Source of the DNA: an uncultured Faecalibacterium sp.
GTDB lineage: Bacteria; Bacillota; Clostridia; Oscillospirales; Ruminococcaceae
Direction: 5' to 3'
Length of the DNA: 41,796 nucleotides
NCBI GenBank assembly: GCA_944385995.1
Contig: CALWZL010000014.1
Coordinates: forward strand, 1 to 41,796
A model generated the notes under the pieces. It did not search any database, had not been told where the DNA came from, and was given only the letters and a program-made list of their open reading frames with translations. A program made the translations under genes and the position numbers. Shown here piece after piece: positions 6,007 to 41,796 of this stretch (the first letter of the stretch is position 1; each line of letters starts with the position of its first letter).

Positions 6007-6927
6007 ATGCAGCAGCCTATGCCCCATGATCCGTCCCGCCGCCCGGTCCACCGCAAGATGACCCGGGCCGAGATCCGCCGCCGTCGCCGCCGCCGTGCCG
6101 CCCGGCGGCTGGCCGTCTTGTTCTGTGCCCTGGCCCTGGTGGCCGGGGGCGTTTCCTTTGCGGTGACCCGGATGCAGGCCGCCCCCGGCGCGTCGGCCGC
6201 CTCGGGGGCCGACAGCAGTCCCGCTTCTTCCGGGACCGGCGGCACCGCGTCCAGCGCGGCCTCCCAGGCCCCGGCGGCGCCCCAGAATGCCCTGGGCCTC
6301 ACCGCCGCCCAGGCCCAGGCCATGCTGGATGACCCGCTGATGGTCCTGGTCAACCACAGCACCCCCATGCCGGAGGACTATACCTTCGAGACCAAGGAGT
6401 GCGGCTCGGCCACCGCCATCAACAAGACCCTTCAGACCGGGGCCGCCGACGCCTTTTTGGAAATGCAGGCCGCGGCAGCCGCCGACGGCATCACCATCTG
6501 GATGCAGAGCGGCTACCGGAGCGTGGAGTACCAGACCACCCTCTATACCAACAAGACCCAGCAGTTTTTGAACCAGGGCTATGACGAGGCCACCGCCAAG
6601 GAGATGGCCGCCGGGATTGTGAATCCCCCGGGCTATTCCGAGCACAACTGCGGCCTGGCCGCCGACCTGAACTGTCCCGACTTCACCGACCTGGACACCG
6701 GCTTTGAGAACACCACCGCCTTCACCTGGCTGTGTGAGCACGCCGGGGAGTATGGCTTCATCCTCCGCTACCCCAAGGGAGAGGAGGCCGAGGCCATCAC
6801 CGAGATCACCTATGAGCCCTGGCACTGGCGGTATGTGGGCCCCGAAAACGCCGCCCGGATCAACGCCAGCGGCCTGGTATTCGAGGACTATATCGCCCAG
6901 CTGCAGCAGATCGCCGCGGCTGGGTGA
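6007..6927 (+). CDS. VanY/DdcY-type D-Ala-D-Ala carboxypeptidase (peptidase M15B), membrane anchored
   Basis: Likely removes the terminal D-alanine from peptidoglycan stem peptides outside the cell. The 306-residue product has a short cytoplasmic Arg-rich N-terminus, one membrane segment (about residues 34-55) and an Ala/Ser/Gly linker to about residue 100. A LAS-type zinc peptidase domain follows: SEHNCGLAAD (His213, Asp220 as zinc ligands) and EPWHWRY (Glu270 catalytic, His273 zinc ligand). The block MQSGYRSVEYQTTLY before it is also typical of VanY/DacY. No vanR/S or vanX lies nearby, so this is an ordinary wall-maintenance enzyme rather than a resistance cassette. It is divergent from spoVAC. 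I chose ATG 6007 with AGAGAGG upstream. Confidence 0.9.
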   Translation: MQQPMPHDPSRRPVHRKMTRAEIRRRRRRRAARRLAVLFCALALVAGGVSFAVTRMQAAPGASAASGADSSPASSGTGGTASSAASQAPAAPQNALGLTAAQAQAMLDDPLMVLVNHSTPMPEDYTFETKECGSATAINKTLQTGAADAFLEMQAAAAADGITIWMQSGYRSVEYQTTLYTNKTQQFLNQGYDEATAKEMAAGIVNPPGYSEHNCGLAADLNCPDFTDLDTGFENTTAFTWLCEHAGEYGFILRYPKGEEAEAITEITYEPWHWRYVGPENAARINASGLVFEDYIAQLQQIAAAG

Positions 6928-7766: not shown

Positions 7767-9185
7767 TTGATCTTCAGTTCGATTATCTTCCTGTTCCACT
7801 TTTTGCCCTTCACCCTGGCGGCCTATTATATCGCCCCCGCCAAAGCCAAGAATACCGTCCTGTTCCTGTGCAGCCTGGTATTCTACTGCTGGGGCGAGGT
7901 CCGCTTTTTCCCGGTGATGCTGGCTCTGATCCTCATCAATTACCTCTGCGGTCTGGGGATCGCCTGGATGGACGCCCGCCCGGCGGGCCGCAAAATCCTC
8001 CTGGCGGCGGCGCTGATCGGCAGCCTGGGGATGCTGTTCTATTTCAAGTACGCCAACTTTGTGCTCAACAGCGCCAACGCCCTGCTGGGGACAAGCTTTG
8101 CCCCCATCGAGGGGATCAGCGTCCTTCCCCTGGGCATCAGCTTCTATACCTTCCAGACCCTGTCCTATACCATCGATGTCTACCGGCGGAACGTCCCGGC
8201 CGAAAAGAACATCATCGATTTCGGCGCTTATGTGGTCATGTTCCCCCAGCTGATCGCCGGCCCCATCGTCAAATACCGGGATGTGGCCGCCCAGCTCCAC
8301 GTCTACAAACACCGCTATTCCCTGGCCCAGATCGAGGAAGGCATGACCATCTTTACCTTCGGCCTGGCCAAAAAGGTCCTGCTGGCCGACGCGGTGGGCG
8401 CCCTCTGGACCGACATCATCGGGGTGGCGGACGACGCTTCCATCACCTTTGTGGGTCTGGCCAACGCCTCCACCGCCCTGGTCTGGCTGGGCATTCTGGC
8501 CTACAGCTTCCAGCTCTACTTTGACTTTTCGGGCTATTCCATGATGGCCATCGGGATGGGCAAGATGATGGGCTTTGAGTTCCCCCAGAACTTCAACTAT
8601 CCGTATATTTCCGCCTCCATCACCGAGTTCTGGCGGCGGTGGCACATGACCCTTTCGGGCTGGTTCCGGGAGTATGTCTATATCCCCCTGGGCGGCAACC
8701 GCAAGGGCCTGCGCCGTCAGATTCTCAACCTGTTCATCGTGGAACTGCTCACCGGCATCTGGCACGGCGCCAACTGGAATTTCATCTGCTGGGGCCTGTA
8801 CTACTTCGTTCTGCTGGCGGTGGAAAAGCTGTTCCTGCTGAACTACCTGCAAAAGGGCAAAATCTGGCCCCACATCTACACCCTGTTCTTTGTGGTGGTG
8901 GGCTGGGCCATGTTTGTGGGCAACGACGCCGGCGTCCAGTTCGGGCTGTTGTTCCGCAAGCTGTTCATCCCCTCGGGGGGCGTGTCGCCGGTTTATTTCC
9001 TGCGGAATTACGGGGTCCTGCTGGCGGTGTCGGCCATCTGCTGCACCCCCCTCATCGGGAAGGTCTGGGACCTGCTGAAACGGCGGAACTGGTCAAGGGT
9101 GCTGACGGTGGCCCTGCTGCTGGTGGTCTCCACCGCCTATGTGGTGGGCAGCACCAACAGCCCCTTCCTCTACTTCAATTTCTAA
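7767..9185 (+). CDS. MBOAT-family O-acyltransferase (AlgI/DltB/PatA-like)
   Basis: Membrane-bound acyltransferase expected to move acyl groups across the membrane onto an extracytoplasmic acceptor. The 472-residue length is typical. Many membrane helices are visible. The conserved MBOAT blocks are PLGISFYTFQTLSYTIDVYR, FPQLIAGPIVKY, YFDFSGYSMMAIGMGKMMGF, ITEFWRRWHMTLSGWFREYVY and GIWHGANWNF with the catalytic-type His333. Translation starts at TTG (7767), set by AAGGAG (7753-7758). The product then begins IFSSIIFLFHFLP, which matches the usual AlgI-type N-terminus. The DHHW gene follows by 12 bases. The substrate cannot be told from sequence; wall polysaccharide or teichoic-type polymer acetylation is the usual guess. 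Confidence 0.93.
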   Translation: MIFSSIIFLFHFLPFTLAAYYIAPAKAKNTVLFLCSLVFYCWGEVRFFPVMLALILINYLCGLGIAWMDARPAGRKILLAAALIGSLGMLFYFKYANFVLNSANALLGTSFAPIEGISVLPLGISFYTFQTLSYTIDVYRRNVPAEKNIIDFGAYVVMFPQLIAGPIVKYRDVAAQLHVYKHRYSLAQIEEGMTIFTFGLAKKVLLADAVGALWTDIIGVADDASITFVGLANASTALVWLGILAYSFQLYFDFSGYSMMAIGMGKMMGFEFPQNFNYPYISASITEFWRRWHMTLSGWFREYVYIPLGGNRKGLRRQILNLFIVELLTGIWHGANWNFICWGLYYFVLLAVEKLFLLNYLQKGKIWPHIYTLFFVVVGWAMFVGNDAGVQFGLLFRKLFIPSGGVSPVYFLRNYGVLLAVSAICCTPLIGKVWDLLKRRNWSRVLTVALLLVVSTAYVVGSTNSPFLYFNF

Positions 9186-9197
9186 GGAGGCTGCGCC

Positions 9198-10373
9198 ATG
9201 GAACGCGACGAAAAACGGGGCGGTCTGCTCCGGTATCCGGTGCTGATCCTGTTCAGCGTCTTTTTCGTGGGGGTCTTTGTGCTGGACTGCCTGACCCCTG
9301 ACCGGGAAATCAGCGAGCTTGAAAATACCACCTTGACCCAGCGGCCCGCCATCACCGCCCAGATTTTGACGGCCAAGGGCCTGAACAACTTTTTCAGCAG
9401 CTACACCCAGTACACCAAGGACCAGATCCCCGGCCGGGACGGCTGGATCAGCCTCCAGAGCTTTGTGGAGACGGCCCTGTTCCAGAAAACCCAGAGCGGC
9501 GGGGTCCTGCTGGGCAGCGAGGGCCAGATGTTCAACCGGACCTTTGGCCTGGTGTCCAGCGAGGAAAAGACCTTTCCCCGGAACGTGGCGGCGGTGACTT
9601 CCCTGTCCGCCCGGTATCCCGGCAAGGTCTACGCCATGGTGGTGCCGGCGGCGTCGGTGATCTATCCCGAGCGGGTGCCGGCGGCGGCCCCGATTCTGGA
9701 CGAAACCGTCTATCTGAACCAGATTCAGACGGCGGTGGAGGAGTCGGGGGGCACCTTTGTGTCGGTGGAACAGACCCTGGCCGACCACAAGGACGAGTAT
9801 ATTTACTACCGCACCGACCACCACTGGACCACCCTGGGGGCGTATTACGCCTACAGCCAGTTGTGCGACCTGCTGGGCCTGACCCCCTTTGACCTGGACA
9901 GCCATCAGGCGGTGGAAATCCCCGACTTTTACGGCACCTTCTATTCCCGGGCCAGGACCTGGAACGCCCGGCCCGACACCCTCACCTATTACGATCTGGA
10001 TAACCCCATGACCATCTACACCGTCACCGGGGCCGGGATGCCGGATGCGGGGGAGACGACGGGTCTGTACGACTTGGCCAAACTGGGGGTCTATGACAAA
10101 TACGCGGTGTTCCTCCACGGCAACAACGGCCTGAGCCAGGTGGAGGGAGACGGCGAGGGCCGCATCCTGGTCATCAAGGACAGCTATGCCAACTCCCTGG
10201 TCCCCTTCCTGACGGCCAACTACGCCGAGATCGACGTGGTGGACCTGCGGAATTACAACTACGGCCTGGATACCCTGATTGCCGACAACGACTACGATCA
10301 GATTCTGGTGCTGTACAGCTTCGACAGCTTCAAGAGCGACCCCTATCTGTACCGGGCGGGCATCGAGGGCTGA
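9198..10373 (+). CDS. DHHW-family protein (AlgJ/AlgX-like SGNH partner of MBOAT)
   Basis: Probable periplasm-side partner that receives the acyl group from the MBOAT protein and passes it to the polymer. The 391-residue product starts at ATG 9198 behind AAGGAGG (9184-9190). One N-terminal membrane segment (about 12-32) should anchor an external domain. The family signature YYRTDHHWTTLGAYYAY is present (Asp207-His208-His209-Trp210). The C-terminal ILVIKDSYANSLVPFL resembles the Ser-containing SGNH block of AlgX/AlgJ relatives, and YNYGLDTLIADNDYDQILVLYS follows. It closes the lipoprotein-MBOAT-DHHW transcript. No terminator is obvious after it, although a new promoter follows. Confidence 0.9.
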   Translation: MERDEKRGGLLRYPVLILFSVFFVGVFVLDCLTPDREISELENTTLTQRPAITAQILTAKGLNNFFSSYTQYTKDQIPGRDGWISLQSFVETALFQKTQSGGVLLGSEGQMFNRTFGLVSSEEKTFPRNVAAVTSLSARYPGKVYAMVVPAASVIYPERVPAAAPILDETVYLNQIQTAVEESGGTFVSVEQTLADHKDEYIYYRTDHHWTTLGAYYAYSQLCDLLGLTPFDLDSHQAVEIPDFYGTFYSRARTWNARPDTLTYYDLDNPMTIYTVTGAGMPDAGETTGLYDLAKLGVYDKYAVFLHGNNGLSQVEGDGEGRILVIKDSYANSLVPFLTANYAEIDVVDLRNYNYGLDTLIADNDYDQILVLYSFDSFKSDPYLYRAGIEG

Positions 10374-10459: not shown

Positions 10460-10488
10460 TTGAGCATTCTCTCACAATGTGGTACAAT
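10460..10488 (+). promoter_or_regulatory. Promoter of the double-glycine protein pair
   Basis: TTGAGC (10460-10465), 17 bases, TACAAT (10483-10488). The near-palindrome GAATCTTATAAGAATA with core CTTATAAG (about 10412-10428) lies 30-50 bases upstream and could be an operator. The leader of about 80 bases contains GGCGAAAGCC, a GAAA-capped hairpin, before the AAAGGAG site. Confidence 0.7.
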
Positions 10489-10575
10489 GGAACTGAACCC
10501 AAAAGGTGTGGGAGAATCTGTTTTGCAGGCAGGCGAAAGCCGGCCGTGCCCTGATGAGCAAAGGAGATTTGACCT

Positions 10576-10968
10576 ATGGAAAACAAAATCCGTTACCCTG
10601 AGCATTTCGCCCCGGTTGCACAGGACGAAATGGTCTATCTGACAGGCGGCAGCATTCTGGATGATGTGGGCGATGCCGTGGACGGCGCCGTCCATGCCAC
10701 TTCCACTGCCATCAATGTCGTGGGCGTCGTGGCCACTGTGGTGGGCGTCTGCGTCCTGGGCGCGAGTTACATTTGGGGCATCCAGCAGTGCAAGCAGTGG
10801 CTGGATGACAACGCGGAAGGCAATGTTTTCACCATTTTGGGCAAGGCTGTCGACGATCTGGGGGCCGATATGTCCCAGTCGCTGTCCTACTTTACCCGCG
10901 ATCTGGTGGCGACGTTTGCAGTTGTGGGCCTGTGGCCCCTGAGCATCCCGCTGCTGATCTTCACCTGA
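10576..10968 (+). CDS. Small protein with double-glycine leader, paralog 1 (bacteriocin-like candidate)
   Basis: A 130-residue product I cannot assign to a named family. The first 25 residues look like a double-glycine leader: R6, P8, D17-E18-M19, Y21 and T23-G24-G25 are shared at the same positions with the next gene, and cleavage would follow G25. The predicted 105-residue core has a hydrophobic Gly-rich helix (about 46-65), an amphipathic middle and a hydrophobic C-terminus (about 110-130). The pattern W75-x3-N-x2-G-N-x6-K-x-V-D93 is repeated with exact spacing in the neighbour. ATG 10576 follows AAAGGAG. Its own promoter precedes it, and it shares a terminator with the downstream paralog. 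Two cysteines in the core (Cys58, Cys72) are not shared. Export by a C39-peptidase ABC transporter would be expected, but none is in this window. Confidence 0.75.
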   Translation: MENKIRYPEHFAPVAQDEMVYLTGGSILDDVGDAVDGAVHATSTAINVVGVVATVVGVCVLGASYIWGIQQCKQWLDDNAEGNVFTILGKAVDDLGADMSQSLSYFTRDLVATFAVVGLWPLSIPLLIFT

Positions 10969-11073
10969 TTTGGTTTGCAAACGGCTGCATTTCTGCTGGA
11001 ACTGTCATCCAGTCGAAAGCTGGAATGTACCGTTCACAATAGCCTCATCTTTGCAAAGAAAAGGAGCATCATT

Positions 11074-11433
11074 ATGGAAATGACCGTTCGTATGCCCGCG
11101 AATTACAACCTTATGACCGAAGACGAGATGACCTACACCACCGGCGGCGCTGACGCTGGCAGCGTTGCTGCTCTGGTCAGTGGCGGTGTCTCCCTGGCTG
11201 TCGGCGGCCTGCTTCTGTACAACTGGATCGATCAGCTGCTGGGCGCTCGTCGTTGGTATGCAGCCAACAAGAGCGGCAACATCGGCACCGATCTGGAGAA
11301 GGGCGTTGACACCTGGCTGAACTACACCACCACCTCTGTCCTGAACTGCGTCCGCAGCGTTCTGGCCACTGCCGCTTCCATCGGCAGCCCCCTGGGCTGG
11401 GTTGTGTCGGCTGTCGCTTTCGCCACCGTCTAA
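11074..11433 (+). CDS. Small protein with double-glycine leader, paralog 2 (bacteriocin-like candidate)
   Basis: A 119-residue product, homologous by eye to the gene 105 bases upstream. ATG 11074 is set by AAGGAG (11061-11066). The leader has the same length, with GG at 24-25 and the shared residues R6, P8, D17, E18, M19, Y21, T23. The core (94 residues) opens with a Gly/Ala/Val-rich helix (about 30-50), then has W61-x3-N-x2-G-N-x6-K-x-V-D79 in the same spacing as paralog 1, and ends in a hydrophobic segment. Codon choice (CGT, GTT, GCT) resembles rpsT and dnaK, which suggests high expression. A strong terminator follows. A class II bacteriocin-like or secreted signalling role is inference; a membrane protein that merely has a GG motif is the alternative. 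Confidence 0.75.
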   Translation: MEMTVRMPANYNLMTEDEMTYTTGGADAGSVAALVSGGVSLAVGGLLLYNWIDQLLGARRWYAANKSGNIGTDLEKGVDTWLNYTTTSVLNCVRSVLATAASIGSPLGWVVSAVAFATV

Positions 11434-11462: not shown

Positions 11463-11505
11463 GGCGGCGGTCCTCCCTTCGGGGTGGGGCCGCCGCCCTC
11501 TTTTT
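11463..11505 (+). terminator. Terminator of the double-glycine protein pair
   Basis: GGCGGCGG (11463-11470) pairs with CCGCCGCC (11490-11497), with further pairing in TCCTCCC/GGGGTGGGG around a TTC loop, followed by CTCTTTTT. Confidence 0.9.
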
Positions 11506-11521
11506 GTCTCCAGACACAGAG

Positions 11522-11560
11522 AAACCCCGAAGGGCCATCGGATGCCCTTCGGGGTTTTTT
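11522..11560 (-). terminator. Terminator of dnaJ, probably bidirectional
   Basis: AAACCCCGAAGGG (11522-11534) pairs perfectly with CCCTTCGGGGTTT (11545-11557). On the minus strand (dnaJ side) it is followed by TTTCTCTG; on the plus strand by TTTTTTG. It therefore also backs up the terminator of the preceding plus-strand genes. Confidence 0.8.
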
Positions 11561-11569
11561 GAATGGAGA

Positions 11570-12742
11570 TTATTTGTTATTGAGGATATCCTTCAGCTTG
11601 CGAAAAAATCCCTTCCGCTTTTCGTAGTTCTCCTCCTTCAGGGTGCCCTCGAATTTCTTCAGGGCCTCCCGCTGGGTCTTGTTCAGCTTCTTGGGGATTT
11701 CCACGTCGCACTTGACGTACATGTCGCCCCGGCCGCGGCCGTTCAGGTACTGAATGCCCTTGCCCCGCAGACGGAAGGTGGTGCCGCTCTGGGTGCCCTC
11801 GGGCAGGGTGTATTCCACCTTGCCGTCGATGGTGGGGACGGTGATGTTGTCGCCCAGCACCGCCTGGCTGAAGGTGATGGGGATGGTGACCCAGACATCG
11901 TAGCCGTCCCGCTGGAACAGCTCGTCGGGCCGGACGGTGACCATCACGATGACATCGCCGGCGGGGCCGCCGTTGGTGCCGGCATCGCCCATCCCGCGGA
12001 GTGCAAAGCTCTGATCGTCGTCAATGCCCATGGGGATATTGACTTCCAGGGTCTTTTTGGTGGCCACCCGGCCGCTGCCGTGGCAGACCTTGCAGGGGGT
12101 TTTAATCAGCTTGCCCTTGCCGCCGCAGCGGGTGCAGGGCTGCTGGCTCTGCATGACGCCGAAGGGGGTCCGCTGCTGCTGGATGGTGTAGCCCCGGCCG
12201 TTGCAGTCGGGGCAGACCTCCGGGCTGGTGCCGGGGGCCGCGCCGGTGCCGTTGCACTCGGTACAGGTCTGCTGCCGGGTGATGGTGATGTTCTTCTTGC
12301 AGCCGTGGACCGCCTCGTCAAAGGTCAGGGTGATCCGCACCCGGATGTCCTGGCCCTTGCGGGGGGCGTTGGGGTTGGCCCGGGTGCTGCCGCCGGCGAA
12401 CCCGCCGAAGCCGCCCCCAAAGATATCCCCGAAAATGTCTCCCAGGTCCACACCGCCGAAGCCGCCGCCGAACCCGCCGGCGCCGGCGCCCTGGCTGGCC
12501 GCGTAGTTGGGGTCAACCCCTGCAAAACCGAACTGGTCGTAGCGCTTGCGCTTTTCAGGGTCTGACAGAACCTCGTGGGCCTCGTTGATCTCCTTGAATT
12601 TCTCCTCGGCGGTCTTGTCGCCGGGGTTGTAGTCCGGGTGGTATTTCAGCGCCAGCTTACGGTAGGCCTTCTTGATCTCCTCATCCGTGGCTGTCTTGGA
12701 CACACCCAGGACCTCGTAGTAATCACGTTTCTCCTGTGCCAT
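11570..12742 (-). CDS. dnaJ: Chaperone DnaJ (Hsp40)
   Basis: Co-chaperone that delivers clients to DnaK and stimulates its ATPase. Starting at ATG 12742 (AGGTGA upstream; the in-frame GTG two codons earlier is too close to that site) the product is 390 residues. It has a J-domain (about 1-70) with His35-Pro36-Asp37, a Gly/Phe-rich linker (about 78-120), and a zinc domain with four CxxCxGxG repeats ([32 protein letters not shown]). The C-terminal substrate-binding domains follow. It is therefore a full type I DnaJ. It is the last gene of hrcA-grpE-dnaK-dnaJ, 173 bases after dnaK. That gap folds into GC-rich hairpins but has no clear T-run. Confidence 0.98.
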
Positions 12743-12915
12743 TTCCACTCACCTCTCGCCTGCCAGCCGCGCTGGCTCCAAAACCGGCAAATGCCGCCCC
12801 GGGAAAAACCGGAGCGGCTTTGCCATCTGTACAAGGGCTGAGGCCCTGGGGCCTTGCCCTCTTTCAGCCGGTGCCTCCCGCCGGTTTGGCCGGGGGGCGC
12901 GGGCTGTCTGATTCT

Positions 12916-31465: not shown

Positions 31466-32764
31466 ATGAACAAACTTTTCCGCCCGGTGCTGCGCCGGGC
31501 TGCCGCGCTGACGGCGGTGCTGGTGCTGGCCGTCTGGCTGGCGCTGCCCGGTCTGGCGGCCTATCCGATGCCCATCCAGACCACCTACCCGGAGGAGTCG
31601 GTCTATCTGTTCGACCTGGACACCGGCAAGACGATTCTGGAGCAGAACGCCGATCAGCCCCGGTACATTGCCAGCCTGACCAAGATGATGACCGCCCTGC
31701 TCTATCTGGAGAGCGGGCTGGACCTGGAACAGGAGATCACCATCCCGGACAGTCTGACCCAGGAATTCACCGATATCCAGAACGCCAACGGTTCCACCAT
31801 CGGCCTGGAGACCGGCGAGACCATCCGGCGGATGGATTTGTTGTACGGGCTGTTGGTGGCCAGCGCCAACGATGCGGCCAGCGTGATTGCCAGCGATGTC
31901 AGCGGCGGGGATCTGACCGCCTTTCTGGCCGAGATGAATGCCCGGGCGGTGGAGCTGGGCTGCACCGACACCAATTTCACCTGCGTCCACGGCCTCTATG
32001 ACTACGGCAACGTGTCCACGGCCAAAGACCTGGCCAAAATTGCGGCGGCCTGCTATGCCAACGAAACTTATATGACGGTGGCCCAGACGGTGGAGTATAC
32101 CATTCCGGCCACCAACCTCCACGCCAACGAACGGGTTCTCACCACCACCAACCTGATGCTGGACCCCAGTTATCCCTACTATCGGGATTACATCCGGGGG
32201 ATGAAAACCGGTTTCACCACCCTGGCGGGGCGGTGCTATGTGACCTTTGCCGAGCAGGACGGCCACACCTACGGCCTGGTGGTGCTGGGGTCGGACCTGG
32301 ACAATATCTATCGGGAATGCGCCGAAATGCTGGACTGGACCTTCTCCACCTTCCAGGAGCGGCAGCTGGTGGACACCGAAACCATGCTGGCCACCGTCCC
32401 CCTGACCCAGTGCCGGACCGAGTCCGAGGTGGAGCTGTACGCCGCCAACACCGTCAACGGCTACGGCCACCCGGAGGACGCCGTCACCTACACCTTTGAC
32501 CTGCCCGAGAGCATCCGGGCCACCGTCCAGGAGGGCCAGGTGGTGGGCACCGCCACCGTCTGGCTGGACGGGTACGAGGTGGGAACGGTGGACCTGGTGA
32601 CCCATCAGGAGTACATCTCGAATTTTCGCACCGACGGCATTGCGACCCTCAAGCTGATGCCGGTGCTGCTGGTGATTCTGCTGGTGCTGGCCTTGCTGAG
32701 CGTTCTGACCGGCGGCGGGCCGGGCCTGTTCCGCCGCAGAGGCCGGCGGAGAAGACGGCGCTGA
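31466..32764 (+). CDS. D-alanyl-D-alanine carboxypeptidase (PBP5/DacF type, peptidase S11)
   Basis: Low-molecular-mass penicillin-binding protein that trims the D-Ala from peptidoglycan stem peptides. The 432-residue product has a signal segment (about 10-31). The S11 active-site motifs are SLTK (Ser70-Lys73), SAN (133-135) and KTG (247-249). A C-terminal beta-domain follows (about 285-390), then a hydrophobic helix (about 396-415) and a poly-Arg tail as cytoplasmic stop. It is thus anchored by a real membrane helix rather than an amphipathic one. In this family DacB and DacF act in spores, DacA in vegetative cells; the sequence does not decide. ATG 31466 follows AAGGAGG. Confidence 0.94.
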   Translation: MNKLFRPVLRRAAALTAVLVLAVWLALPGLAAYPMPIQTTYPEESVYLFDLDTGKTILEQNADQPRYIASLTKMMTALLYLESGLDLEQEITIPDSLTQEFTDIQNANGSTIGLETGETIRRMDLLYGLLVASANDAASVIASDVSGGDLTAFLAEMNARAVELGCTDTNFTCVHGLYDYGNVSTAKDLAKIAAACYANETYMTVAQTVEYTIPATNLHANERVLTTTNLMLDPSYPYYRDYIRGMKTGFTTLAGRCYVTFAEQDGHTYGLVVLGSDLDNIYRECAEMLDWTFSTFQERQLVDTETMLATVPLTQCRTESEVELYAANTVNGYGHPEDAVTYTFDLPESIRATVQEGQVVGTATVWLDGYEVGTVDLVTHQEYISNFRTDGIATLKLMPVLLVILLVLALLSVLTGGGPGLFRRRGRRRRRR

Positions 32765-38054: not shown

Positions 38055-38196
38055 GGCTGTCCGTTTTTAAATATGCACGGGGCGCAAAGACCCCGCCGGC
38101 GGCCTTCGATTGGCCGCATCTGCCGGCATCCAGCTACGTTCGGCCCGCGCCGCCGCGGTACTGCGGCGCAGGGCGCAAGTCAAAAAGGGAAGATTC

Positions 38197-41100
38197 ATGG
38201 AAAAATACAGTGTTAAGAAGCCATTCACCGTACTGGTCGCGGTCCTGATCGTGTTCCTGATGGGTTTTGTGTCGGTGACCAACCTGCGCACCGACCTGCT
38301 GCCGGACCTGAGTACCCCCTACCTGATGGTGGTGACGGTCTATCCCGGCGCCAGCCCCGAAAAGGTGGAGAGCGAGGTGTCCGAGGTGCTGGAAAGCGCC
38401 CTGGGCACGGTGGCGGGCGTATCCAGCATCACATCCACTTCGGCGGAGAACTACAGCATTGTACAGCTGAGCTTCGGCGCCGATACCGATATGAACAGCG
38501 CCCTGGTCAAGGTGTCCAACACCCTGGACCAGAACAAGGACAGCCTGCCCGACATCTGCCTGACCCCCTCCATCTTTGAGCTGAGCATGGACATGAGCTC
38601 GATGATGACGGTGGCCGTGGGCCGGGAGGGCGCCGACATCTATGAATTGAGCGACTTCCTGGAAGAGAGCGTCATCCCCGAGCTGGAGCGTCAGGAAGGT
38701 GTGTCCAGCATTTCCACCACCGGTCTGGTGAGCAAATACATCCAGGTCCAGCTGAACGAGAGCAAGATTGAGGACCTGAACGTCCTGCTGCTGGAGCAGG
38801 TGGATGCCCAGCTGGCCCTGGCCAAGGATCAGCTGGATGCAGCCGCCGCCCAGCTGGCCGACGGCAAAGCCCAGCTGCAGGAGGCCATTGACACCTTCGG
38901 CAACGTCTTTGCATCGGGTGTGGTGGACCGGGTGGCCGGCATGGTGTCGGACGCCACCCTGGAGATCCGTGAGAAGGTCCAGACCCTGATGAACGCCATC
39001 GACAACCTGATTGCCTTTGTCAATGAGCCCGAGATCAAGGAGGCCCTGACCCGGGTGCGGGACGGCCTGGCCGAGATCATGGACGAAATTTCCGCCACCG
39101 GCCTGCGGGACATCGACGACCTGATCGACGTGGTGTCCAAGATCCGGGACCTGACCGACGAGCTGACGGTGGCCCTGCAGCAGCTGCAGCAGCGGCTGGA
39201 CCAGGAGACCGGCGGGGACGGTTCCACCGCCGGCGACCTGATGGACACGCTGCAGATTCAGCAGAGCCTGGATGTGGTCTACTCCACCATGCAGGACGTG
39301 CTGGATTCCCTGAACCGGGTTCCCCAGCTGCTGGATCAGTTTGAGTCGGTCTACGCCGAGATGAGCCAGACCCAGCTGGAGGCCTACCTCCAGATCACCG
39401 AGGCCCAGCGCCAGGTGGAGGAGGGCCAGAAGCTCTACGACCAGTACAAGGAAGAATTTGAAACCGCCAAGGCCAGCGCCTTCGCCAACGCCGATGTCAA
39501 CAACCTGCTGACCATCGACGTGCTGTCCCAGCTGATCTACGCCCAGAACTTCTCGATGCCCGCCGGCTACATCGACGACAAGGACGACAATTCCTGGCTG
39601 TTGAAGGTGGGCGAGGAATACGACAGCATCGAGGACCTGGAGGGCGCCCTGCTGCTCCACATCGAGGGCGTCACCGACATCTACCTGAAGGACGTGGCCG
39701 ACGTGGCGGTGGTGGACAACGCCGCCGAGTCCTTCACCCGGCTGAACGACGAGCGGGCCGTGGTCCTGAATATCTACAAGAGCACTTCTGCCAGCGCCAA
39801 CGCAGTGTCGGATGCCTGCCTGGCCGCCTTCGATGAGCTGGGGGCGCGGTACGACGGACTGAATTTCAGTGTCCTTTCCAACCAGGGCAACTACATCACC
39901 GTCCTGATTTCCAGCATCCTCAGCAGTATGGCCATCGGCGCGGCTCTGGCCATCCTGATTCTGTCCCTCTTCCTGAAGGACATCAAGCCCACCCTGGTGG
40001 TCGGCATCAGCATTCCCCTGTCGGTGCTGTTCGCCGTGGTCCTGATGTATTTCACCGGCATCAACCTGAACATCATGAGCCTGGCCGGCCTGTCCCTGGG
40101 CATCGGCATGCTGGTGGACAACTCCATCGTCGTCATCGAAAACATCTACCGCCTGCGGGCCCGGGGCGTGGCTGCCCCCCGTGCAGCCGTCCAGGGCACC
40201 CGCCAGGTGTTCGGCTCCATTGTTTCTTCCACCCTCACCTCGGTGTGCGTCTTCCTGCCGGTGGTCTTTACCGAGCAGATCACCCGGGAGCTGATGCTCC
40301 CCATGTGCCTGACCATCGGCTACTGCCTGATGGCCTCCCTGCTGGTGGCCATCACGGTGGTGCCGGCCTCGGCTTCCACCATCCTGCGGGAAGCCAAAGT
40401 GAAACCCATGCCCTGGTTTGAGAAGGTCCAGGCCAGGTACGCCGCCAGCCTGGAATGGTGCCTGGACCACAAGCTGGCTCCCCTGGGGGCCGTGGTGGTG
40501 CTGTTCGCATTCTGCGTGTGGCGTGTGACCCTGATGGGCATGGTCATGCTGCCCAACGTCTCCAGCACTGAGATCAGCATGAGCGTCACCACCCCCAGCG
40601 ACATGACCCGGGAGCAGTCCTATGAGATGGCGGGCCAGATTTTGGAGACCGCCATGGGCCTGGATATGGTGGAGGAAGTGGGCGTCACCACCGACACCAC
40701 CATCTACGGGGTGGACGTGGGCATGCTGGGCAGCACCATCAGCAATTTGCTGTCCACCACCTCCACCGGCTACGGCACCTATGCCTATAACATCAAGCTG
40801 GAGGCCGGCGCCAGCGCTTCGGACGCCGAACAGGTGGGCGCAGCCCTGGAAGAGGCCATGACCCAGTACGATTGTACCAGCAAGGTGACCATCGACGGCA
40901 TCTCGGAGATCACCAGCATGCTGGGCAGCGGCCTGTCCGTCACCATCTACGGCAACGACTTCGAGACCCTCCAGAGCCTCAGCGACCAGGTGGTGGAGAT
41001 GGTCAACGGCACCGAGGGCTTTGCCAACGCCACCACCGGCCTGGGCAAAGGCGACCAGACCATCGAACTCCACATCGACAAGGATAAGGCCCGCGCCGCC

Positions 41101-41796
41101 GGCCTGACGGTGGCCCAGGCCTACCAGGCCATCGCGGCCAAGCTCACCACCTCCACCGACTCCACCACCATCAGCATCAACGGCGAGAGCATGACGGTGA
41201 AGGTGGTCAACGACACCGATCCCCTGACCGTGGAAAACCTGATGGATATGACCTTCAACACCACCAACTATGCCGCCGACGGCAGCCAGGTGGCGGAGGT
41301 CCACACCCTGGGCGAGTTTGCCGAGATCACCTACGGCACCACCCCCGACTCCATCACCCGCCAGGATCAGACCCGGTGCATCACCGTCACCGCCCAGACC
41401 CTGGACGGCTACAACACCACCGTCCAGGCCCGCCAGCTCCAGGACAAGCTGGACCAGTGGCAGGCCGAGGGCGGCCTGCCCGAGGGCTACAGCGTGGCCC
41501 TCAGCGGTGAGACCAGCAACGTCAACGACATCATGGGCCAGATGGCCCAGTGGCTGGCCCTGGCCCTGCCCTTCGTCTACCTGGTGATGGTGGCCCAGTT
41601 CCAGAGCCTGCTGAGCCCCTTCATCGTCCTGTTCACCATCCCCCTGGCCTTCACCGGCGGCATGGTGGGCCTGCTGGCCCTGGGCGAGCAGCTGAGCCTG
41701 ATGAGTCTGATGGGCTTCGTCGTCCTGATGGGCACCGTCGTCAACAACGGCATCCTCTTCGTGGACTACACCAACCAGCTCCGCCTGGGCGGGATG
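38197..41796 (+). CDS. RND-family efflux permease with coiled-coil insertion, partial (3' end beyond window)
   Basis: Proton-driven exporter of the HAE/SwrC type in the cytoplasmic membrane. ATG 38197 follows AAGGGAAG; the frame is open for all 1,200 codons to the window end. N-terminal helix 1 (about 9-28, LVAVLIVFLMGFVSVTNL), then porter subdomains. An unusual long helical, Gln/Leu/Asp-rich insertion (about residues 200-425) carries coiled-coil heptads such as AQLALAKDQLDAAAAQLADG. Membrane helices 2-6 begin near residue 568. The proton-relay helix reads GMLVDNSIVVIENIYRLR with one Asp (Asp641) where AcrB has two. The second porter half and the helix YLVMVAQFQSLLSPFIVLF follow. Cargo is unknown; SwrC relatives export lipopeptides. 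The 1,056-codon frame opposite it is a codon-bias shadow. Confidence 0.93.
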   Translation, partial: MEKYSVKKPFTVLVAVLIVFLMGFVSVTNLRTDLLPDLSTPYLMVVTVYPGASPEKVESEVSEVLESALGTVAGVSSITSTSAENYSIVQLSFGADTDMNSALVKVSNTLDQNKDSLPDICLTPSIFELSMDMSSMMTVAVGREGADIYELSDFLEESVIPELERQEGVSSISTTGLVSKYIQVQLNESKIEDLNVLLLEQVDAQLALAKDQLDAAAAQLADGKAQLQEAIDTFGNVFASGVVDRVAGMVSDATLEIREKVQTLMNAIDNLIAFVNEPEIKEALTRVRDGLAEIMDEISATGLRDIDDLIDVVSKIRDLTDELTVALQQLQQRLDQETGGDGSTAGDLMDTLQIQQSLDVVYSTMQDVLDSLNRVPQLLDQFESVYAEMSQTQLEAYLQITEAQRQVEEGQKLYDQYKEEFETAKASAFANADVNNLLTIDVLSQLIYAQNFSMPAGYIDDKDDNSWLLKVGEEYDSIEDLEGALLLHIEGVTDIYLKDVADVAVVDNAAESFTRLNDERAVVLNIYKSTSASANAVSDACLAAFDELGARYDGLNFSVLSNQGNYITVLISSILSSMAIGAALAILILSLFLKDIKPTLVVGISIPLSVLFAVVLMYFTGINLNIMSLAGLSLGIGMLVDNSIVVIENIYRLRARGVAAPRAAVQGTRQVFGSIVSSTLTSVCVFLPVVFTEQITRELMLPMCLTIGYCLMASLLVAITVVPASASTILREAKVKPMPWFEKVQARYAASLEWCLDHKLAPLGAVVVLFAFCVWRVTLMGMVMLPNVSSTEISMSVTTPSDMTREQSYEMAGQILETAMGLDMVEEVGVTTDTTIYGVDVGMLGSTISNLLSTTSTGYGTYAYNIKLEAGASASDAEQVGAALEEAMTQYDCTSKVTIDGISEITSMLGSGLSVTIYGNDFETLQSLSDQVVEMVNGTEGFANATTGLGKGDQTIELHIDKDKARAAGLTVAQAYQAIAAKLTTSTDSTTISINGESMTVKVVNDTDPLTVENLMDMTFNTTNYAADGSQVAEVHTLGEFAEITYGTTPDSITRQDQTRCITVTAQTLDGYNTTVQARQLQDKLDQWQAEGGLPEGYSVALSGETSNVNDIMGQMAQWLALALPFVYLVMVAQFQSLLSPFIVLFTIPLAFTGGMVGLLALGEQLSLMSLMGFVVLMGTVVNNGILFVDYTNQLRLGGM

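Follow-up and report, generated by a model that had tools for sequence, protein, structure and literature searches.

What are the products of two small neighbouring genes that carry double-glycine leaders and lie away from any matching exporter, and by which route would they leave the cell? The genes are found in a 41,796-nucleotide stretch of an uncultured Faecalibacterium sp., called here the window, which is contig C14 of a 2.25 Mb assembly that is 87.7% complete. The first gene, P0001, occupies 10576-10968 (+) and encodes 130 amino acids; the second, P0002, occupies 11074-11433 (+) and encodes 119, with 105 bases between them. They are paralogous (BLASTP E = 1e-11, 39/121 identical). We propose that both are probably exported, leader-cleaved cargo of PCAT, the peptidase-containing ABC transporter proposed to export MAM (microbial anti-inflammatory molecule, a known surface protein), and are destined for the envelope; within this proposal, export by PCAT is likely and the role in the envelope is a reasoned guess. 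The features of the locus are listed below, the leader scores coming from an HMM of 30 rows that include the leaders of P0001 and P0002 themselves.

7767..9185, + strand: MBOAT O-acyltransferase gene, conserved neighbour upstream of the array
9198..10373, + strand: DHHW/AlgX-like gene, conserved neighbour upstream of the array
10460..10488, + strand: promoter-like site TTGAGC-17-TACAAT with TG extension (consensus scan, upstream alignment)
10560..10566, + strand: ribosome-binding site AAAGGAG of P0001 (sequence; kept in the upstream alignment)
10576..10650, + strand: double-glycine leader of P0001, 25 residues, A type (leader HMM 42.4 bits, E 2.7e-10)
10651..10968, + strand: core and stop of P0001, the A-type cargo that opens the array
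11060..11066, + strand: ribosome-binding site AAAGGAG of P0002 (sequence)
11074..11148, + strand: double-glycine leader of P0002, 25 residues, B type (leader HMM 49.2 bits, E 2.0e-12)
11149..11433, + strand: core and stop of P0002, B-type cargo
11463..11505, + strand: intrinsic terminator 3' of both genes, hairpin 11463-11497 followed by T5 (-32.5 kcal/mol, z -4.6)
11519..11560, no strand assigned: second hairpin, containing a perfect inverted repeat of 14 bp whose ends are A/T, in the interval that separates the array from convergent dnaJ
11570..12748, - strand: dnaJ, convergent neighbour downstream of the array

Signals for the promoter and the terminator that a preliminary description of this DNA had proposed are both in place. 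When the window was aligned with 13 of the 18 A-gene loci from a collection of named genomes, the TTG and TAnAAT elements were kept throughout the 14 rows, and 11 rows also had the TG extension. The second hairpin is probably a bidirectional terminator. The same description had also read the codon usage as that of highly expressed genes, which was not borne out for P0001 (0.47) and is a weak claim for P0002 (0.59), against 0.79 for DnaK and 0.52 for the MBOAT gene; this test is coarse because its reference consisted of DnaK and GrpE only, and ribosomal protein L3, sought as a codon reference, was not found in the incomplete assembly. The genes dnaJ, dnaK and grpE are presumptive names, given from the look of the sequences, and we take the MBOAT and DHHW/AlgX-like pair (7767-10373, +) to be perhaps a unit for O-acetylation of a surface polymer. 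Elsewhere in the window we observed a T-box leader (932-1197, -; 101.5 bits) and two D-Ala-D-Ala carboxypeptidase genes, of the VanY type (6007-6927, +) and of the S11 type (31466-32764, +). An open reading frame at 38134-41304 (-) was set aside as a shadow ORF by its look, its codon-table score being meaningless.

The two leaders are as first described, with GG at residues 24-25, the shared residues R6, P8, D17-E18-M19, Y21 and T23, and a gap-free alignment of all 25 residues that holds in every detail; the coordinates and protein lengths were also correct. Over their last 19 residues the leaders are alike at 8 positions, a number that none of 100,000 shuffles reached. They had been assigned to the type cleaved by C39 peptidases, which is right, and a transporter encoded elsewhere in the genome had been suggested. 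Our search of the host genome found one C39 transporter (G000:C2:72301-72795; 776 aa), with C39, ABC membrane and ABC ATPase domains, on another contig than the pair (C2 and C14, respectively). Its best match among solved structures is 4ry2 (E 5.8e-165), which we take to be PCAT1, and Gln8, Cys14 and His92 are aligned. These are the numbers published for the PCAT of F. duncaniae. According to the same paper, leaders of PCAT cargo have a hydrophobic residue at -12, E at -8, L or M at -7, V at -4 and GG at -2/-1 (PMC12184118). The window leaders largely follow this rule, P0001 with V14, E18, M19, L22 and G24-G25 and P0002 with M14, E18, M19, T22 and G24-G25; Met at -12 and Thr at -4 in P0002 and Leu at -4 in P0001 deviate from the consensus. 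The PCAT1/CtA system of Acetivibrio (Clostridium) thermocellus (named in PMC12184118) is similar in transporter architecture, in the catalytic Cys and His and in the leader positions that are recognized, and differs in that the cargo genes of the window are not beside the transporter.

The leader and the transporter occur together across the genus. The leader HMM matched in 27 of 31 Faecalibacterium genomes, and 26 of these 27 have a strong C39 match, the exception being G025, which is 77% complete. None of the four genomes without leader proteins (G019, G020, G021 and G026) has a strong match, G021 showing a weak one in a 293-aa frame, and these four may represent one lineage. The association is significant by Fisher's test (p 1.6e-4), as is that between C39 and the family of the window genes, where C39 is present in 25 of 26 genomes having the family and in one of five without it (G024; p 7.7e-4); both p-values overstate independence, because the genomes share ancestry and the species are not independent. 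Each of the 26 C39-bearing genomes has one such frame, of 776-846 aa in 25 genomes; that of G028 has 203 aa and is broken or cut.

The window genes are not peculiar to the source genome. Matches to P0001 were found in 23 of the 31 Faecalibacterium genomes and matches to P0002 in 26, so that 26 of 31 have the family. Core homologues without a double-glycine leader were sought, and the P0001-matching gene bears the leader in all 23 genomes having one (22 by regular expression, G015 by the leader HMM). From the loci, 93 leader-bearing proteins were collected with the leader pattern, and BLAST of their leader-less cores at 1e-5 gave one component of 57 for the window family, one of 34 for MAM, and two singletons. 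The window family comprises 22 A-type, 19 C-type, 12 B-type and 4 other (D-type) members, the A-type gene of G015 having been missed by the regular expression and lying outside both the 22 and the 57. By hhalign, the A, B, C and D types are related to each other with probabilities of 86-98%. In a tree of 53 cores over 98 columns, in which 18 of 49 inner branches are open, 19 first genes of arrays fall on one side of a branch with support of 85, and the cores group by type and not by species; therefore, the types seem older than the sampled species.

The core signature W-x3-N-x2-G-N-x6-K-x-V-D of the preliminary description stands in part. Its spacing is exact in the pair (W75/N79/G82-N83/K90/V92-D93 in P0001; W61/N65/G68-N69/K76/V78-D79 in P0002), but it is no signature of the family: among the 22 A-type cores, three have the exact motif and all 22 a relaxed form; among the 12 B-type cores these numbers are two and seven; and the 19 C-type and 4 D-type cores have neither form. 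The conserved alignment columns of the A type are WL....N..GN..T..G...D....DM..S.....RD.V, and a conserved cysteine column was found in neither the A nor the B type and once in the C type. Hydropathy marks residues 38-70 and 112-130 of P0001 and 28-49 of P0002, and the cores might form a helical hairpin, as judged from the hydropathy of these two proteins. The preliminary description had considered that the family may be undescribed. Neither P0001 nor P0002 matched a Pfam or NCBIfam model at the model cut-off, and nothing convincing emerged when the pair and 43 relatives were searched against family models and PDB sequences. The weak model matches among the 43 relatives were to QslA (12 members, best E 0.0018), Bacteriocin_IIc (10, 0.0092), Mersacidin (2, 0.001), lantibiotic (5, 0.0013), cerein (2, 0.034) and lactococcin G-alpha (1, 0.0049).

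The family also has a chromosomal place that is shared by the species examined. The named collection returned 25 loci, all from Faecalibacterium, of which 18 (L093-L110) contain an A gene and seven (L111-L117) are relatives by leader only. In each of the 18 A-gene loci the array is preceded by the MBOAT and DHHW genes, and dnaJ lies downstream in 15; L101 ends with its contig, and L104 and L106 have no dnaJ within the flank. The arrays have two genes in 11 loci, three in six and one in one (contig end). In G026, which has neither leader proteins nor C39, the interval between DHHW and dnaJ is 214 bp and contains no family gene (L252); the same site is occupied by other ORFs in G019 (1.9 kb) and G020 (1.4 kb), and the stretch from G021 has no dnaJ. 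Two loci have genes inserted between array and dnaJ, which by eye resemble a toxin-antitoxin pair in L105 and a Fic-like protein in L107. A mobile origin of the genes was considered and found unsupported, as query A1 gave eight pattern matches in viral contigs, none confirmed, and P0002 against phages and P0001 against plasmids gave nothing.

Outside the genus, a search of the family with the A-type alignment gave matches in 8 of 297 genomes, four of them full-length in Faecalibacterium and four in other genera restricted to leader-end stretches. The A-B-C alignment, run on 394 genomes of the order, matched nine, again four Faecalibacterium in full length and five others in partial, weak stretches. 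No full-length member was found outside Faecalibacterium in these sampled genomes (297 of the family, 394 of the order). Among 247 genomes of the family, the leader model alone found matches in six, of which three are Faecalibacterium. G021, which is placed in the genus, gave no match in these samples. Proteins with a similar leader were observed in other genera (L122-L125, in G086, G273, G209 and G321), with cores that have no BLAST link to the Faecalibacterium cores.

The nearest known relative by leader, absent from the preliminary description, is MAM. In the excerpts consulted, PCAT is the proposed exporter of MAM, which is treated as its cargo, with one leader motif (PMC8836110, PMC12184118). 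MAM and the window pair are alike in leader type, GG site, size, the single C39 transporter of the genome and a genus restriction, which for MAM is a reported one. In the source genome, the P0002 leader and the MAM1 leader are identical at 12 of the last 19 residues, which was reached in 0 of 100,000 shuffles. We rejected an identification of the pair as the MAM genes of the species, since two MAM-cluster genes adjoin PCAT on contig C2 (L003 5989-6360 and 5575-5949). SpoIIGA-like and sigma-factor genes are also near PCAT and the MAM genes there, the kind of setting that has been described for mam, close to a sporulation cluster and, in certain strains, to PCAT as well (PMC8836110). The pair, in contrast, lies between MBOAT-DHHW and dnaJ on C14. 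The array is also present in G003, the MAM of which has the published N-terminus over 42 residues.

Could the window proteins nevertheless be distant members of the MAM fold, beyond recognition by sequence and built into the same hexagonal lattice? Leader type, inferred exporter and size would agree with this, and the published model of MAM is helical (PMC12184118). However, the cores form separate BLAST components (57 and 34 members), also at 1e-3, and hhalign assigned 0.2-1.3% to the comparisons of the A-D types with MAM cores and 0.1% to that of the whole family, a profile comparison without homology. Moreover, a 19-residue window at KD >= 1.6 is present in P0001 and P0002 and absent from both MAM proteins of the source genome. 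We therefore regard a shared fold as unlikely. The published motif MMMPANx(8,11)VxGG was found in 25 of 35 proteins of the MAM cluster and in none of the other collected proteins (0 of 115 in all, 0 of 58 in the window family). Because the cores are non-homologous by profile comparison, the surface role of MAM is not transferable to the pair. The location of its products can be likened to that of MAM only through leader and exporter, and not through the core. According to PMC12184118, MAM is the most abundant envelope protein, its leader was absent from the peptides of supernatant and LiCl extract, and of the four insoluble replicates one gave a single observation of a leader-containing peptide.

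The preliminary description had itself favoured a two-component bacteriocin or a signalling system. Class IIb bacteriocins have GG leaders, paired genes and hydrophobic Gly/Ala-rich segments, and the window pair shares these traits with the lactococcin G and cerein families; some relatives also match class II bacteriocin and lantibiotic models weakly. The mature peptides would then insert together in the membranes of competitors, with immunity encoded elsewhere. Against this, 15 loci showed no conserved immunity-sized ORF between array and dnaJ. In nine of these 15 arrays the last gene and dnaJ are at most 170 bp apart, and the sole ORF of at least 30 aa common to such gaps has 30-37 aa and occurs in three near relatives (L105, L107 and L108), the scan covering the gaps on the dnaJ side; on the other side, DHHW and the first gene are ~200 bp apart in the window. 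The mature cores are longer, at about 83-109 residues, the chromosomal site is common to the species examined, and six of the 18 named arrays are three-membered. All 12 comparisons of core dN/dS, from six of the 18 named loci, gave values below 1 (0.14 to 0.66), while one leader comparison, based on few sites, exceeded 1. P0001 and P0002 had no match to a class II bacteriocin model in Pfam or NCBIfam, and viral contigs, phages and plasmids, with one query each, yielded no match that was confirmed. A LanC-like lanthipeptide cyclase (PF05147) was also absent from the source genome, which is 88% complete, the control having matched in 1 of 14 genomes. The bacteriocin interpretation is thus lowered, and we consider it improbable.

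Signalling fares worse. GG leaders also serve pheromones, as PMC8836110 states, but the neighbours are MBOAT, DHHW and dnaJ with no sensor or regulator, and the core is long and conserved, not a short variable peptide, which makes secreted pheromone precursors of a regulatory circuit very improbable. That the leader resemblance is incidental and the pair are small membrane proteins kept in the cell is least credible of all: the cores are hydrophobic and export is deduced, but P8, E18, M19, Y21, G24 and G25 are invariant in 43 aligned members (partly by construction, because members were gathered with the leader pattern), other cores without a BLAST link carry the same leader, and the leader tracks the C39 protein.

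The presence of the MAM leader type on an unrelated body suggests that one exporter serves several kinds of surface proteins. After 40 more stretches had been added, the leader model was run on every locus from L004 onwards with a threshold of 15 bits. It gave 150 proteins, the cores of which fell at BLAST 1e-4 into components of 58 (window family), 35 (MAM), 23, 10, 4, 4, 3, 3 and 2 members and eight singletons; the first eight components are all from Faecalibacterium. The whole leader reaches at least 20 bits in six of these eight (members printed), the leader model having been built on leaders from three groups (the window family, MAM and the family of 23), so that matches in these are partly by construction. 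The two weaker components are one with four members and GGG (16-24 bits) and one of the three-member components (16-20 bits). Unrelatedness of the components refers to BLAST, and to profile comparison for the window family and MAM. There would thus be six, perhaps eight, unlinked cargo families with a common leader, and the window family is one of the two largest in this seed-biased collection. Further leader groups were observed at G000:C19 (L140, L180), G000:C3 (L134, L181), L111-L117 and L183-L219, with a family of 133-159 aa and one of 73-80 aa containing IARxFS.xSSI.NN as examples. In L058, L116, L183 and L200, a protein of 87-109 aa with a partial leader and GGG shares its locus with a gene of the 23-member family, a possible cargo pair.

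According to our model of PCAT-dependent export, P0001 and P0002 would be made as precursors, probably from one promoter as a cotranscribed unit. The C39 domain of PCAT would read the leader at the hydrophobic residue at -12, E-M at -8/-7, Tyr at -5 and G-G at -2/-1, and cleavage after the second glycine (G25) together with export would release mature proteins of 105 and 94 residues. These would have hydrophobic stretches (two in P0001 and, at the threshold used, one in P0002) around a conserved polar region, and would probably stay with the membrane or envelope. There, one may speculate, they could work alongside MAM, as a structural part or in interactions. In its broader form, on which we are evenly divided, the model is that of a single PCAT with an interchangeable leader and at least six families of small proteins with unrelated cores, MAM being the first one noticed and the window pair a second component of the coat. 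No description of a second leader-bearing family of Faecalibacterium was seen in the titles and abstract openings among the matches listed, and the published MAM lists of 108 and 257 sequences may hold the window family.

MAM is investigated as an effector in a leading genus of next-generation probiotics, and the motif published for it misses the window family as well as the other leader groups. Constant leaders on variable cargo provide putative substrates with which a single PCAT can be tested. If these proteins are co-exported, mutants or knock-downs of PCAT would affect numerous proteins together, and lattices or envelope fractions now attributed to MAM would need re-examination. Moreover, if a single exporter does serve them all, effects ascribed to MAM alone could partly stem from its co-exported partners.
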